Part shown: in pieces, positions 25,123 through 60,605 of the stretch | Layout of the letters: every line of letters begins with the position of its first letter | Numbering within the stretch: the first letter of the stretch is position 1 | Source: SAR202 cluster bacterium bin22 | GTDB taxonomy: Bacteria; Chloroflexota; Dehalococcoidia; Lucifugimonadales; UBA3495 | Direction of reading: 5' to 3' | Assembly (NCBI GenBank): GCA_002238505.1 | Contig: MPMM01000006.1 | Location: forward strand, 1-64,000 | DNA length: 64,000 nucleotides | Made by a program: the position numbers and the translations under genes | The notes under the pieces: generated by a model | Database searches by the model: none | What the model was told of the DNA's origin: nothing | Seen by the model: the letters and a program-made list of their open reading frames with translations, nothing else

Positions 25123-25432
25123 GGAACGACGTCCCTTCCAGCCCCTCATTAGTTCCTGAAAACGAATATTCCGCTCGTCCCGATACTGTCCAATCGTCCC
25201 GGCTATGGGGGATCAGACAGTTACAGGCTGGGCGGAATGTTTTGTGCCTTCAGCTTGGGCTGGCAATCAAGCTCGTTCGGGCAGGCCCAACCTTCCCCCG
25301 TTCGCCCTGAGCCGGTCAAAGGGCCGCCCGTCCAAAGTTCGACAAGCCCGCCACGAACGGCGGGGAGTTCTCCCGTGGATACGGCGCCGGTAGAAACACC
25401 CGTTAACCCATCGCTACATCATTGCCAGGCGA
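25123..25432. repeat. Spacer with GCCCTGAGCC / TTCGACAAGC repeat echoes
   Basis: Contains GTTCGCCCTGAGCCGGTCAA and GTTCGACAAGCCCGCCACGA (about 25301-25355), degenerate pieces of the element family also found at 31613, 32099, 34063 and 47349. No gene seen. Confidence 0.45.
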
Positions 25433-28163: not shown

Positions 28164-28613
28164 TTACTCGAACACGGTATTCAGCCTGGCGGAACTGTCG
28201 AAGAAGTGCTGAAGGCTCTGGTTAACCCGGAAGAAAATGTCGGCGCGCAGCTGGTCGCCCGTTGCGTTGTCGGAAATCCCCCCGTCAATCATCAGGTCCA
28301 GGGTGTTGAGGGTGTGGTTGAGGTCAGCGCCGTTGTTGTCCCTGGTATTGGTTACCAGGTCCTGCCATTGCTCCACCGTCATTTTCAGGAAGAAATCGGC
28401 GTCGATCAGGTCGTATTCGGTCCCTTCCCTGACCTCGGTGCATTCAAAGGCCTCGAAGGTGATCACGTAAACCTTTTCGCCGACCATTACCCCCATGACC
28501 GCGTCAATATTACCCAGCCGCCGGAACTCCTCGTCGTTATTGACCAGTTCCTGCAGGGCCTGGAACCATTCTACCGAGGGGAAGGTGAGGGCAGTGGAGT
28601 TGAGGTCTGTCAT
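28164..28613 (-). CDS. SCP2-like lipid-binding-domain protein
   Basis: The 149-residue protein looks like a single sterol-carrier-protein-2-like domain. It starts VEWFQALQELVNNDEEFRRLG, which is typical, and continues VMGVMVGEKVYVITFEAFEC with TEVREG. DADFFLKMTVEQWQDLV follows, matching the SCP2 pattern of a ligand sheet followed by an amphipathic helix. Such domains hold hydrophobic molecules. It lies in a row with the zinc-ribbon gene (58 bp upstream) and the ferritin-like gene, all minus strand, so it may bind the lipid substrate of those oxidases. ATG has AGGAGA upstream. Confidence 0.65.
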   Translation of the reverse strand: MTDLNSTALTFPSVEWFQALQELVNNDEEFRRLGNIDAVMGVMVGEKVYVITFEAFECTEVREGTEYDLIDADFFLKMTVEQWQDLVTNTRDNNGADLNHTLNTLDLMIDGGISDNATGDQLRADIFFRVNQSLQHFFDSSARLNTVFE

Positions 28614-28671
28614 CTAGAGTCTCCTGGAAAGGTGAAAGAGGATGATCAATGGACTATTCAAGGTGAGCGAT

Positions 28672-28980
28672 TTACTCCTTGAAGTAAGGCTCGCCCTTTT
28701 CCTTCGCCCGGCTGAAGGGCACCATGCGGTCCATGTGGTAGTCGGGGTCGGAGTTGGCGGGAGCTTTGCCAATGGCCTCGTCCACCATCTTGTGATATTT
28801 GGGGTCCAGCTGCTCCAGCTTGTCCATTTCCGACCGGATGTAGGCCACCCGGGAGATGATGCGGTGCAGGGACTCGGCGCCGCACAGGCTGCATTGGGTT
28901 GGGTCCGGGGCGCTGAAGGAGCGCAGGTAAACGCTGTTGACTCCGCCGCAGCCTTCGCACCGGTATTCGTAAATGGGCAC
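28672..28980 (-). CDS. FmdB-type zinc-ribbon protein
   Basis: The 102-residue protein starts with the FmdB/CxxC regulatory-protein signature PIYEYRCEGCGG. Zinc ligands are Cys8, Cys11, Cys30 and Cys33. The rest is charged and helical (LDPKYHKMVDEAIGKAP), unlike the shorter standard family. The GTG start is 2 nt after the TGA stop of the ferritin-like gene upstream, so translation is coupled. A longer frame to 29073 overlaps that gene and lacks similarity. Probably a small regulatory or structural zinc protein of the same operon. Confidence 0.8.
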   Translation of the reverse strand: MPIYEYRCEGCGGVNSVYLRSFSAPDPTQCSLCGAESLHRIISRVAYIRSEMDKLEQLDPKYHKMVDEAIGKAPANSDPDYHMDRMVPFSRAKEKGEPYFKE

Positions 28981-28982
28981 GG

Positions 28983-30107
28983 TCAGTCTCCCGTCGGGGC
29001 AGTCTCTTCGCGGCGCAGGAAGGCAGCCAGGTCGGGGGAAAGGTTGGCCTCGGTCTTGTTCACTCCGGCCCACTGCATGCGCTTCAGATAGTCTTCGATG
29101 TACTGGCGTTTGAGGTCATCCACCACGGCCATGCCCTGGGCGATGTTGGCGACACTGCCGCCAATGATTATAGCCAGGGCTTCCCACAGCACCGGATCCC
29201 TCAGGTCCTGGACCAGGTCCCGCTCCACGCCCCGCATCAGGTTGCCCAGGCCCTGGCCAAAGCCGGGGGGCTGGTTATCCACCGCGTATTTTACGTGGGC
29301 CATACCGTAGGCCATGTGGCGGGCCTTGTCTTCAATGCACTTGCGGAAGAGGAACTTGTCGGCGCGGTTGCGGGCGTAGGCCTCGCCGTAACGGTACAGC
29401 AGCAGTGTCAGGGGCCCGCGCACCAAGTACAGGAACATCCCAACTTCGGTCCAGCCCGGGCGGGTCTCCATCATGCGGCGGTTGAACTGGCCAGCGCTCT
29501 CCAGGCCCAGGCTGCCCTCGTTGTGGAGGGCGCGGTTGCGGAAAGTGGTGTAGTGGCGGCCCGTGTCGAATATCTCCGAGGCCAGGAAGGTCTTGACCTC
29601 GTGGTAGGCGTAGTTCATTTTGTGGAGCCATTGGCCGATGACGTCGGTTTCAATGGATGCCTGCTGGGCCAGTTCGGTGCAAAATTGGCGCATGGCCAGC
29701 TCAAACTCATAGGGCTGGGGGGTAATTTCGTCCCAGCCGATTTCCAGGTGGCCCATCCACCGGCGCTGGATGGCTTCTTCATAGAGGTCCACCGCATTGT
29801 CGGCCCACAGGTCAACCCTGGCGCTGAGGGCGTACAGGTCGGTGCGGGGAATGCCGGAAACGGGGAAGGCGCCCCGGGGACGGCGGCTCATGTCGGAACT
29901 GGACTCGGGCACTTCGCCGTAAATGCCGACGTTGAGGTCGCGCATGGTCAGGCCCTTCCTGCCCGGCTGGACTCGGACGCCCCACTGCAAGGTGTCGTTC
30001 ATCCAGGCCAGGGGCTCGGAGCTGACGGCAGGGGCAGTTTCCGATTCCTGGCTCTGGTCGCCTTCTTCAGTGCTGTCCGCAGGCTTCTGTTCCTCGTCGA
30101 GCGCCAA
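28983..30107 (-). CDS. Ferritin-like protein with degenerate diiron site
   Basis: The 374-residue protein is clearly related to the ferritin-like protein at 30340-31386, but most metal ligands are replaced. The first helix Glu is Ala150, the ExxH of helix two is TGRH (Thr182, His185), and the last ExxH is KARH (Lys261, His264). Only Glu242 and the two His remain. It has an acidic N-terminal extension of about 35 residues. The start is taken as TTG 30107, 6 nt after GAGG. The arrangement recalls the metal-free beta subunits of bacterial multicomponent monooxygenases, so it may be a structural partner. It heads an operon with zinc-ribbon and SCP2-like genes. Confidence 0.75.
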   Translation of the reverse strand: MALDEEQKPADSTEEGDQSQESETAPAVSSEPLAWMNDTLQWGVRVQPGRKGLTMRDLNVGIYGEVPESSSDMSRRPRGAFPVSGIPRTDLYALSARVDLWADNAVDLYEEAIQRRWMGHLEIGWDEITPQPYEFELAMRQFCTELAQQASIETDVIGQWLHKMNYAYHEVKTFLASEIFDTGRHYTTFRNRALHNEGSLGLESAGQFNRRMMETRPGWTEVGMFLYLVRGPLTLLLYRYGEAYARNRADKFLFRKCIEDKARHMAYGMAHVKYAVDNQPPGFGQGLGNLMRGVERDLVQDLRDPVLWEALAIIIGGSVANIAQGMAVVDDLKRQYIEDYLKRMQWAGVNKTEANLSPDLAAFLRREETAPTGD

Positions 30108-30287
30108 AACCAACCTCGCTTTCTGCTACTGTTGTTGACCTTATGCTACGGAAATCCGGGGAGATGGCGGGCTGGATCGCCGGATACCTGGCGGCATATT
30201 ATTCCCCACCCCATAGCCACCGAAACAGCGCCGGAAACTCGAACCAATCCGACCAGATAGGGAAGATCCACGGCTCATTCCAAAAGC

Positions 30288-30319
30288 AAGACCTCCCGCG
30301 AGTGTCCGTGGGAGGTCTT
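30288..30319 (-). terminator. Terminator of the ferritin-like oxidase gene
   Basis: AAGACCTCCC and GGGAGGTCTT form a 10-bp stem with a 12-nt loop, followed on the minus strand by GCTTTTGG. It lies just past the stop of 30340-31386 and separates it from the degenerate paralogue. Confidence 0.75.
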
Positions 30320-30339
30320 TCCGTTACTTGCCAGGTTGG

Positions 30340-31386
30340 TTACGCGGCCGCCTTGTACTGCTCCAGCAGGGCCGGATTAACCCGGCCGTTGTGAATGCGG
30401 TCGTCAAAGCCGGCAGACTTGAGCCGCTGGAAGTATTCCTTGGTCTGCCGCTGGCGAATGGCGCGCAGGATGTTCTGGCCTTCGTCCATCTTGTCCTTGC
30501 CGCCGCCCAGCAGCACCGCCAGGGCCTGGCTGGTAAGCTGGCTCTGGCCGGCAGGGTTCTCGCCGCCGGCGCCGGTAGCCTGGCGGGACTCGCCCTCGTC
30601 CAGGTAGCAGTGAATCTCCTCGCGGCGTTCGGGCGCAAATTCGTTCATATAGCGGAGATGCAGGACGCCGATGGCCACGTGTCGGGCCTCGTCCTGGGCG
30701 CACCGCCGGTAGATGGCCTTTTCGGCCTCGTTGTAGGCCATCATCTCGCCCAGCCGGAACAGGGTGAGCACGTTGCCTTCGCCAGTGATGTGAAGGCGGG
30801 AGGAAAACTCGGTGAACTCCCGCGCATTGTCAGTGCTGCCGCCAACCACGTCGCTGACGCTGTCAATCATACGCATCAGGCCGCCGCCGTTGGCCAGGGC
30901 CCGCTTGCGGAACACGTCCAGATGGCGAGACTCGTCCATAACCTGGGCCAGGAGAGCCAGCCTTACTTCCTGGTAGTCGGGAGACATGGTGGAGATGAAG
31001 CGCCCGGGCACGTCGGAGGCGACGAACTCCACCTGAGTGAAGAAGGTTGCCAGCTGGCACTGGGACGCCTCGATGTCATCGGAGAGGGGCTGAATGGTGT
31101 CCCAGGGGATGTCTGTGGCCGAACTCCACTGGCGGGTGATGAATTCTTCGTAGAGCTTGGTCAGATTGTAAGCCCACACCTCGCTCTTGGTGCGGAAGGT
31201 GTAGGCGCCGAATCTGGCCACATTCCCCCGGGGGATGGAGCCCTGTACCCGGCCGGTGTCGTTGGCGGAACGCTCTTCAACGCCCTCCCCGGCCACGTGC
31301 TCCTGCAACTGGCTCAGCCAGGAAAGATCGAATCCCTGTTCCTTTGCCCGCTCCCAGTACTCGGTCCTGCTTTCCACAGTGGCCAT
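30340..31386 (-). CDS. Ferritin-like (R2-type) diiron oxidase candidate
   Basis: The 348-residue protein has a complete carboxylate-bridged diiron set: Glu120 (in QVEFVASD), Glu152-x2-His155 (DESRH), Glu214 (LGEMMAYN) and Glu233-x2-His236 (DEARH). This places it in the ribonucleotide-reductase-R2 / AurF-like ferritin superfamily. Such proteins activate O2 for hydroxylation, desaturation or N-oxygenation. ATG 31386 has GGAGGT 6 nt upstream; a GTG at 31401 is less likely. A ligand-poor paralogue is immediately downstream and a Rieske ferredoxin is 1.2 kb away. Substrate unknown; it is too divergent to be assigned as a true R2. Confidence 0.78.
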   Translation of the reverse strand: MATVESRTEYWERAKEQGFDLSWLSQLQEHVAGEGVEERSANDTGRVQGSIPRGNVARFGAYTFRTKSEVWAYNLTKLYEEFITRQWSSATDIPWDTIQPLSDDIEASQCQLATFFTQVEFVASDVPGRFISTMSPDYQEVRLALLAQVMDESRHLDVFRKRALANGGGLMRMIDSVSDVVGGSTDNAREFTEFSSRLHITGEGNVLTLFRLGEMMAYNEAEKAIYRRCAQDEARHVAIGVLHLRYMNEFAPERREEIHCYLDEGESRQATGAGGENPAGQSQLTSQALAVLLGGGKDKMDEGQNILRAIRQRQTKEYFQRLKSAGFDDRIHNGRVNPALLEQYKAAA

Positions 31387-31612
31387 GCCAACCACCTCCA
31401 CTGGTTCCGTCGCGCTTTTGAATAGGCTGCGCCGATTATGGGTGATGGTAACTATGGGCAGGTGGGATTGTCAACTTAATTAAGGGCAATCGCGTTTTAG
31501 TCTGTTCGTAAATTGCCCAGCGCCCTTCAGCGAGAAATGAATATCACCTTGAGCTTGCCGAAGGGCTAAGGACGACATTTCTCCATAACGCGATTGCCCT
31601 GATTGCCTCCCC
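31387..31612. other. Spacer upstream of the ferritin-like oxidase
   Basis: No gene. Contains a CTTGAGCTTGCCGAAGGGCT repeat echo (31550-31570) and the pair GCAATCGCGTTTT / AACGCGATTGC (about 31487, 31588), an inverted repeat spanning about 110 bp. Confidence 0.4.
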
Positions 31613-31746
31613 CAGGGTCTTTCGATTGCCGGTTGCAACTCCTCGAGTCTGTTCGTGGTGAGCTTGGAGAACCATTCCAGGCGGCCCTTCGACAGGCTCA
31701 GGGCGAACGGTGGAAGAGACTCTACCAAGATAATCGAAATACCCGG
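31613..31746. mobile_element. 134-bp MITE-like element, copy 1 (degenerate)
   Basis: The left end CAGGGTCTTTCGATT is intact; the right end AATCGAAATACCCGG has two changes from the consensus AATCGAAAGACCCTG. The interior carries GTTCGTGGTGAGCTTGGAGA and GGCCCTTCGACAGGCTCAGG. No target duplication is evident. Confidence 0.75.
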
Positions 31747-31779
31747 TCACCTGGCCCTTGTCCGACTGGGCAAGGGGTG

Positions 31780-32085: not shown

Positions 32086-32098
32086 GGTGGTTATCCAC

Positions 32099-32239
32099 CA
32101 GGGTCTTTCGATTGTCGGTGGCAACTCCTCGAGTCCGTTCGTGGTGAGCTTGGAGAACCATTCCGGGCGGCCCTTCGACAGGCTCGGGGCGAACGGTGGA
32201 AGAGACTCTACCAAAATACACAATAATCGGAAGACCGTG
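32099..32239. mobile_element. MITE-like element, copy 2
   Basis: A 141-bp copy with left end CAGGGTCTTTCGATT and right end AATCGGAAGACCGTG. A small insertion (ACACA) lies near the right end. Confidence 0.8.
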
Positions 32240-32561: not shown

Positions 32562-32891
32562 ATGCCCGACGATTTCGTTAAGGTTGCCGCGGTCAGCGAG
32601 GTTTCCCCGGGGGATATGAAGGTAGTGGACGTGGGCGACGACCAGATTCTCCTGGTCAACGTGGATGGCGAGGTCCACGCCTGCGACGACATCTGCAGCC
32701 ACGCCTACGCTTCCCTGTCCGAGGGCGACCTGGACGGCGCGGAAGTCCAGTGCCCGCTCCACGGCGCCATCTTCAACGTCAGGACCGGTAAGGTACTTAC
32801 CCCGCCGGCGGTGGACGCCCTGCGCATCTTCGAGGTGCGGGTGGAAGGCGACGATATACTCGTCGGCCCGGCCCGGGAGGGCCAGGAGTAA
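32562..32891 (+). CDS. Rieske-type [2Fe-2S] ferredoxin
   Basis: The 109-residue soluble Rieske protein binds a 2Fe-2S cluster through Cys45-x-His47 (CSHAYA) and Cys64-x2-His67 (CPLHG). These proteins carry electrons to oxygenases such as ring-hydroxylating and diiron enzymes. AAGGAGGAG lies 5 nt before the ATG. It is transcribed away from the ferritin-like genes 1.2 kb upstream; whether it serves them is open. No reductase gene is adjacent. Confidence 0.93.
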   Translation: MPDDFVKVAAVSEVSPGDMKVVDVGDDQILLVNVDGEVHACDDICSHAYASLSEGDLDGAEVQCPLHGAIFNVRTGKVLTPPAVDALRIFEVRVEGDDILVGPAREGQE

Positions 32892-34053: not shown

Positions 34054-34062
34054 CCACACAGC

Positions 34063-34196
34063 CAGGGTCTTTCGATTGTCGGTGGCAACTCCTCAAGTCC
34101 GTTCGTGGTGAGCTTGGAGACCCATTCCGGGCGGCCCTTCGACGGGCTCAGGGCGAACGGTGAAAGAGACTCTACCAAAAGAATCGAAAGACCCTG
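34063..34196. mobile_element. MITE-like element, copy 3, with 9-bp target duplication
   Basis: Perfect 15-bp terminal inverted repeats (CAGGGTCTTTCGATT / AATCGAAAGACCCTG) enclose a 104-bp interior. The flanks at 34054-34062 and 34197-34205 are both CCACACAGC. It carries no gene, so it must depend on a transposase in trans. Confidence 0.9.
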
Positions 34197-34280
34197 CCAC
34201 ACAGCGTTCCTGGTGGACATACCCGCGCATTGGTGGCTAAACTGCCTTATTCCATCAGCCAGTTGAGGAGGCAAGACAGA

Positions 34281-59554: not shown

Positions 59555-59639
59555 AGAAATGGCTGGGGATGGAGGGTTCGAACCTCCGCTTCCTGATCCA
59601 GAGTCAGGCGTCCTACCACTGGACTAATCCCCAGCGAAG
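59555..59639. repeat. 85-bp direct repeat, left copy (contains tRNA-Gln)
   Basis: Identical to 60521-60605. It spans the whole tRNA plus 5-6 bp on each side. Confidence 0.95.
59560..59633 (-). tRNA. tRNA-Gln (CUG), copy 2
   Basis: Acceptor TGGGGAT/ATCCCCA, G73 and an encoded CCA. The anticodon loop CTCTGGA on CCTGA/TCAGG gives CUG. It follows hicB with no promoter of its own recognised. Confidence 0.95.
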
Positions 59640-60520: not shown

Positions 60521-60605
60521 AGAAATGGCTGGGGATGGAGGGTTCGAACCTCCGCTTCCTGATCCAGAGTCAGGCGTCCTACCACTGGACTAATCCCCAG
60601 CGAAG
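60521..60605. repeat. 85-bp direct repeat, right copy (contains tRNA-Gln)
   Basis: Identical to 59555-59639. The two copies bracket 881 bp with hicA, hicB and the gene fragment. Confidence 0.95.
60526..60599 (-). tRNA. tRNA-Gln (CUG), copy 1
   Basis: Same sequence as the other copy. It has a plausible promoter 77 bp upstream (60676-60704), so it is probably the original locus. Confidence 0.95.

Follow-up and report, generated by a model that had tools for sequence, protein, structure and literature searches.

The first 64,000 nucleotides (nt) of contig MPMM01000006.1 (the window), from the SAR202-like Dehalococcoidia genome SAR202 cluster bacterium bin22 (GCA_002238505.1; 4.39 Mb, 58 contigs), include a minus-strand cassette of four genes, headed by a predicted diiron protein (A) and continuing with its degenerate paralogue (B), a zinc-ribbon protein (ZR), and a protein with the predicted fold of sterol carrier protein 2 (SCP):

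30340-31386, minus strand: A, predicted catalytic ferritin-like (R2/AurF/VlmB-type) diiron subunit, 348 amino acids, with E120, E152, H155, E203, E233, and H236
28983-30107, minus strand: B, degenerate paralogue (pseudo-subunit), 374 amino acids, with A150, T182, H185, R230-G231, K261, and H264 at the former metal site
28672-28980, minus strand: ZR, FmdB-family zinc ribbon that may be rubredoxin-like, with a CxxC...CxxC pattern and, at the C-terminus, a conserved tail that closes with GEPYFKE
28164-28613, minus strand: SCP, SCP2-fold protein, putative hydrophobic-ligand or acyl carrier, 149 amino acids, without a Pfam match

A begins with ATG at 31386 and B with TTG at 30107, where relatives possess an ATG; ZR begins with GTG, 2 nt after the stop codon of B. 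An earlier note on this DNA, made from the sequence alone, had correctly placed both ferritin-like genes and had proposed that one encodes a catalytic subunit and the other a structural or regulatory one.

The two ferritin-like proteins are paralogues, as that note held: A and B share 29% identity (E 4.7e-37), profile-profile comparison gave a probability of 100 over 331 columns, and in a genome-wide search B was the sole other A-like protein. The residues listed in the note all occur at the numbers given, but Glu214 of A had been wrongly taken as a metal ligand. Profile alignments with the VlmB homologue 6d9f and with AurF-like proteins from related genomes rule out Glu214 (A)/Glu242 (B) as a ligand pair and align the ligand Glu of both references with Glu203, which lies within an invariant G-E-G and is the helix-3 ligand of A; the spacing from the helix-3 Glu to the last ligand Glu is 30 residues in A and in the AurF-like proteins alike. 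At the place equivalent to Glu203, B carries R230-G231, so all four ligand carboxylates are missing (A150, T182, R230-G231, and K261) rather than three of four as first read. The Glu242 that B was said to keep is irrelevant to the metal site and is gone in one B subclade, while H185 and H264 are indeed retained in the B of the window.

This division holds across relatives. Pairs of A and B were extracted from many genomes of the same family, order, and class and of one other class of the phylum, all metagenome assemblies, with the A and B labels assigned by profile scores trained on the two groups themselves. All six ligands (E-E-H-E-E-H) were present in 64 of 64 A proteins (63 plus one later; two classes), and Glu occurred at none of the four sites in any of 59 B proteins (48 plus 11 later; two classes); some lineages have Asp at site three, and two have it at site two. 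An A-x-H-G-K-H pattern is common to about half of the first 48 B proteins. In distant lineages B lacks one or both His as well, so that the 'selective loss' described in the note is the local state of a wider metal-site decay, and the retention of both His, seen in the window's family and in certain others, is not general among B proteins. Within the window's own family K261, R230, and both His of B are invariant, so that there the former metal site persists as a remodelled, positively charged pocket; K261 is also invariant in several other B groups and elsewhere is R, S, L, I, or T. A-family diiron proteins occur in 116 of the 393 genomes of the class, often in several copies per genome. Neither A nor B has an above-cut-off match to any Pfam or NCBIfam family, and a search for relatives outside the phylum, confined to plasmids, returned one weak match, a Xenorhabdus ferritin-like protein (E 1e-4).

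A structural model of A (predicted local distance difference test [pLDDT] 69; predicted template modelling score [pTM] 0.72) matched the folds of the VlmB azoxy synthase (Z 23.2), the 6d9f oxidase (Z 23.0), R2lox (Z 21.8), and the aldehyde-deformylating oxygenase (Z 20.7). The ligand-bearing helices are among its better-predicted parts, with low confidence confined to the first 67 residues and two loops. Model and alignments together show A as a predicted R2/AurF-type diiron fold with an invariant E-ExxH-E-ExxH set. The fold and the six-ligand pattern are shared with VlmB/6d9f (VlmB being the nearest solved structure), AurF, R2lox, and the aldehyde-deformylating oxygenase, but identity to A is only ~15-20% and falls below family cut-offs: A scored 16.7 bits against a cut-off of 194 for the R2lox family (NF006200), had no Pfam match to class I ribonucleotide reductase R2 (PF00268), and had no match up to E 1 to the AurF N-oxygenase family (PF11583). 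Profile comparison of A with its AurF-like relatives reached a probability of 98.3, and by this measure A and AurF are in the same superfamily, with A outside the curated PF11583 family. AurF has one more His ligand, located four residues ahead of its last Glu; A has Cys229 at that position. Four residues past the first ligand His, where R2 has its radical Tyr, both proteins have a Phe (Phe159 in A, Phe189 in B). We know of no degenerate twin subunit for VlmB, AurF, R2lox, or the aldehyde-deformylating oxygenase.

The histories of A and B are matched. A maximum-likelihood tree of 100 sequences divided into an A group and a B group with mirrored internal branching; the sole exception to the split was the long-branched pair from locus L123, whose placement is unreliable. 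The distance matrices of 39 pairs were correlated at r = 0.94, compared to no more than 0.37 in 2000 permutations; species history alone would give some of this correlation. Several genomes possess two or three very different A-B pairs, and the matching holds pair by pair. As a ratio of distances, B changes ~1.75 times as fast as A. Among 12 genomes chosen mostly for a seemingly unpaired A, B was present in all 12, and in most of these A was on another contig while B adjoined SCP or ZR and SCP. Co-occurrence in relatives, on which the pairing could have failed, was therefore found even where the two genes are unlinked. By what the sequences imply, an A-B heteromer is well supported, and the idea of a catalytic subunit with a degenerate structural or regulatory one gains strong support from the ligand dichotomy, the mirrored trees, and the co-occurrence when unlinked.

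A survey of genome context found the order A-B-ZR-SCP in nearly all family-level relatives, in two further families of the class (f33 and f56), and in the other class (L114 and L115). Variants include A-B alone (g2, f64), A-B-SCP-SCP-ZR (L043, L067), and A-A-B-SCP (L105). The tandem SCP duplicates between B and ZR (L043:7102-7970, L067:12055-12974) suggest an SCP pair in some lineages. Loci with B and SCP but without ZR were found at L105, L116, L117, and L159-L165; A adjoins only in L105 and is on other contigs in the rest, which indicates that the catalytic and carrier halves are genetically separable. The SCP family was present in five of 201 phylum genomes, all five of which contain A-B. 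Since B mostly stays with SCP or with ZR and SCP when A is unlinked, and since all SCP genomes have A-B, B-(ZR)-SCP is the tightest unit. Within the window, the junctions around A are marked by two further features:

30290-30317, minus strand: hairpin core GACCTCCC/GGGAGGTC, immediately past the stop codon of A and ahead of B
31445-31474, minus strand: promoter-like element 59 nt upstream of A (TTGACA-18-TACCAT), recognised by consensus alone, with one match versus 0.9 expected by chance

The pattern GACCTCCC...GGGAGGTC occurs nowhere else in the 4.39-Mb genome, and relatives from several genera also have a hairpin at this position, in some with stems that are altered yet still paired. It may end or weaken transcription after A; a terminator scan did not report it, and its T-run is short. 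The four genes had been read as a single operon. That description is safe for B-ZR-SCP, where the intergenic gaps are 2 nt (B-ZR) and 58 nt (ZR-SCP), but unsure for A, given the conserved hairpin and a gap of 232 nt to B.

The small proteins of the cassette are recognisable to different degrees. Sequence searches with SCP against Pfam and the PDB returned no match, and none of 18 SCP members reached the PF02036 cut-off; the model (pLDDT 85.8) superposed on Thermus SCP2 (2cx7; Z 13.0, root-mean-square deviation 2.2 over 119 residues), and Foldseek placed UbiJ-SCP2 and AF1534 near the top (probability 0.98-0.99). The 'SCP2-like' of the note thus stands as a predicted fold but not as a sequence-family match. 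Like T. thermophilus SCP2, UbiJ, and SCP-x, to which it is alike in predicted fold, SCP is small and stands alone, but it forms a distinct family tied to A-B. UbiJ serves lipid hydroxylation. The zinc ribbon was borne out as FmdB-type by both TIGR02605 (43.1 bits, cut-off 31.3) and PF09723 (38.2, cut-off 34.4); ZR has the CxxC...CxxC pattern of these families and differs from them in its conserved tail of ~50 residues.

We consider it fairly probable that the locus encodes a heteromeric, multi-subunit, O2-activating diiron oxygenase, composed of A, the pseudo-subunit B, and a lipid or acyl-CoA carrier. A would bind the diiron centre, and B would be an obligate non-metal partner that pairs with it, as suggested by the lack of Glu ligands in every B and by the co-evolution and co-occurrence of B with A. 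B would stabilise A or aid its iron loading and would bear a docking surface for the small proteins encoded alongside. On the basis of its fold and linkage, SCP may bind the hydrophobic substrate, which is probably an acyl chain or acyl-CoA, and hand it to A-B. ZR might be a rubredoxin-like electron donor or an assembly factor, which is the weakest step of the scheme, and a reductase from another locus would supply the reducing power.

Two known systems illustrate such an arrangement. Yeast Rnr4 has lost three iron ligands and is nevertheless required to activate the cofactor of Rnr2, whose centre it is thought to stabilise or assemble (PMC2704937). Both pairs have an R2-type fold, with a diiron centre in one paralogue and a loss of ligands in the other; they differ in that Rnr4 has lost three ligands compared to all four Glu in B, in that A has Phe159 in place of a radical Tyr, and in that A-B is bacterial, of another family, and accompanied by SCP2-fold and zinc-ribbon proteins. 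In the phenylacetyl-CoA epoxidase, PaaC is the structural twin of PaaA (PMC4498308), and this system combines, as is proposed here for A-B, catalytic and structural ferritin-like twins with small extra subunits, its substrate being a CoA thioester (PMC4498308). However, the cassette has no conserved counterpart of PaaB or PaaE, and the degeneration appears independent. Membership of the PaaA/PaaC family is ruled out by profile comparison (hhalign against PF05138: probability 2.4 for A, 0.9 for B), and the genome itself has no PF05138 match. The bacterial multicomponent monooxygenases invoked in the note therefore serve as an analogy, with the relatives of A being AurF, VlmB, R2lox, and R2.

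Neighbouring genes offer hints as to the substrate. Clustering of stop-to-stop frames suffered from shadow frames on the other strand and served only to pick neighbours for family scans. The clearest hint of acyl-CoA chemistry is at L123:6276-10845, where a thiolase and a ChsH2-type DUF35 protein, partners in steroid side-chain degradation, are encoded directly downstream of a very divergent A-B-SCP in the same orientation. In f94 an acyl-CoA synthetase adjoins A, and in f33 the cassette adjoins CoA-transferase III genes and an enoyl-CoA hydratase. Adjacency to CoA-transferase III genes was downgraded as proof of a CoA substrate, because f33 genomes (G283, G316, and others) show a striking expansion of these genes, with 45-106 copies each. 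A luciferase-like flavin monooxygenase frame lies ~10 bases past SCP on the same strand at L115:5111-6241. From the SCP2 fold and the acyl-CoA neighbours in some lineages, our tentative best guess is a hydrophobic acyl-CoA or lipid substrate; the same evidence favours the O2-dependent lipid modification suggested in the note, which stays conjectural.

The Rieske ferredoxin that the note counted as part of the system (32562-32891, strand opposite to the cassette) is present nearby but absent from the syntenic loci of relatives; as it was near the cassette in no relative examined, the same genus included, it was ruled out as a partner. The signal peptidase, SMP-30-like, inositol monophosphatase, and metallophosphoesterase genes that flank the cassette were likewise not near it in relatives, except for isolated, distant, or fragmentary matches in one same-genus locus.

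Several observations weigh against the proposed oxygenase. A was modelled with no more than moderate confidence (pLDDT 69, pTM 0.72, from 21 sequences), and A and B are parted by 232 nt plus the hairpin. One SCP copy is apart from any A or B. Several lineages are without ZR, which must accordingly be dispensable in some of them. In the window's own family the cassette has no conserved neighbours, acyl-CoA genes included, and with 45-106 CoA-transferases per f33 genome their adjacency to the cassette is only suggestive. No conserved reductase gene was found beside the cassette among the neighbours scanned.

The alternative that survives best would make B purely a cofactor-assembly or stability partner of A, in the manner of Rnr4, with SCP and ZR as unrelated operon cargo. 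Rnr2/Rnr4 is the closest precedent within the R2 fold (PMC2704937), and the faster drift of B (~1.75) and the lineage-specific remodelling of its former metal site are in keeping with such a role. We nonetheless hold it unlikely, as SCP, and in several lineages ZR, remain with B though A is elsewhere, and every genome in which SCP was found also has A-B, which argues that SCP and ZR act with B. It is more improbable that A and B are co-inherited but act separately, with B a soluble ligand-binding relic with a role of its own: the two are sometimes on different contigs and the hairpin parts them in the window's family, but unlinked A and B always co-occurred where tested and their trees are mirrored, even among several pairs within one genome. 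A rubrerythrin-type scavenger of peroxide or O2, with ZR as its rubredoxin-like partner and no organic substrate, is highly doubtful. A diiron ferritin-like fold and a four-Cys ribbon are the recipe of scavenging systems, but A groups with R2/AurF/VlmB-type oxygenases and oxidases, and the SCP2-fold partner and the acyl-CoA genes near several copies play no role in detoxification. That B is redox-active without metal, like class Ie R2, in which three Glu are replaced, one of them by Lys (PMC11846895), has a very low probability despite the Lys for a ligand Glu at K261, invariant in the window's family and several other groups, since B has Phe189 where the DOPA (dihydroxyphenylalanine)-forming Tyr would be expected, four residues past the first His, and other lineages have R, S, L, I, or T in place of K261 and have lost the His pair.

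The proposed oxygenase of A, B, and a carrier can be extended, speculatively and with no great likelihood, to a class of Chloroflexota-specific split oxygenases. The B-ZR-SCP delivery half could be encoded apart and shared by several A paralogues per genome, as one carrier module for a set of oxygenases whose substrates in the ocean would be resistant acyl-CoA compounds of a lipid-like or alicyclic kind.

Elsewhere in the window, a dispersed repeat of 139 nt occurs three times (31612-31750, 32098-32236, 34062-34200; 86-91% identity), with an inverted partial copy of 37-39 nt at 25292-25330; the copies of the 139-nt repeat give rise to false reading frames in the window. Two tRNA-Gln genes with the same anticodon (ctg) lie on the minus strand ~1 kb apart (59560-59633, 60526-60599).

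The oxidation of resistant dissolved organic matter by SAR202-type Chloroflexota is attributed to expanded flavin monooxygenases, enolase-superfamily enzymes, and Rieske dioxygenases (PMC6946804), and the word 'diiron' occurs zero times in this SAR202 pangenome paper. No literature report was found of the A-B-ZR-SCP gene set, and none of the papers listed in a search combined a diiron oxygenase with a sterol-carrier partner. Marine and sponge-associated Chloroflexota carry an ancient gene set in which a putative iron oxygenase always comes with a metal-less twin and is joined by a protein resembling a fat carrier and by a small metal-binding protein. The set probably forms an uncharacterised machine for oxidising hydrophobic molecules. 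An expanded, unnamed diiron oxygenase family would add a route of SAR202-type oxidation that present annotation overlooks, because neither protein reaches the cut-off of any Pfam or NCBIfam family. The A-B pair is also a natural experiment in how a second ferritin-like subunit sheds its metal and becomes obligate.

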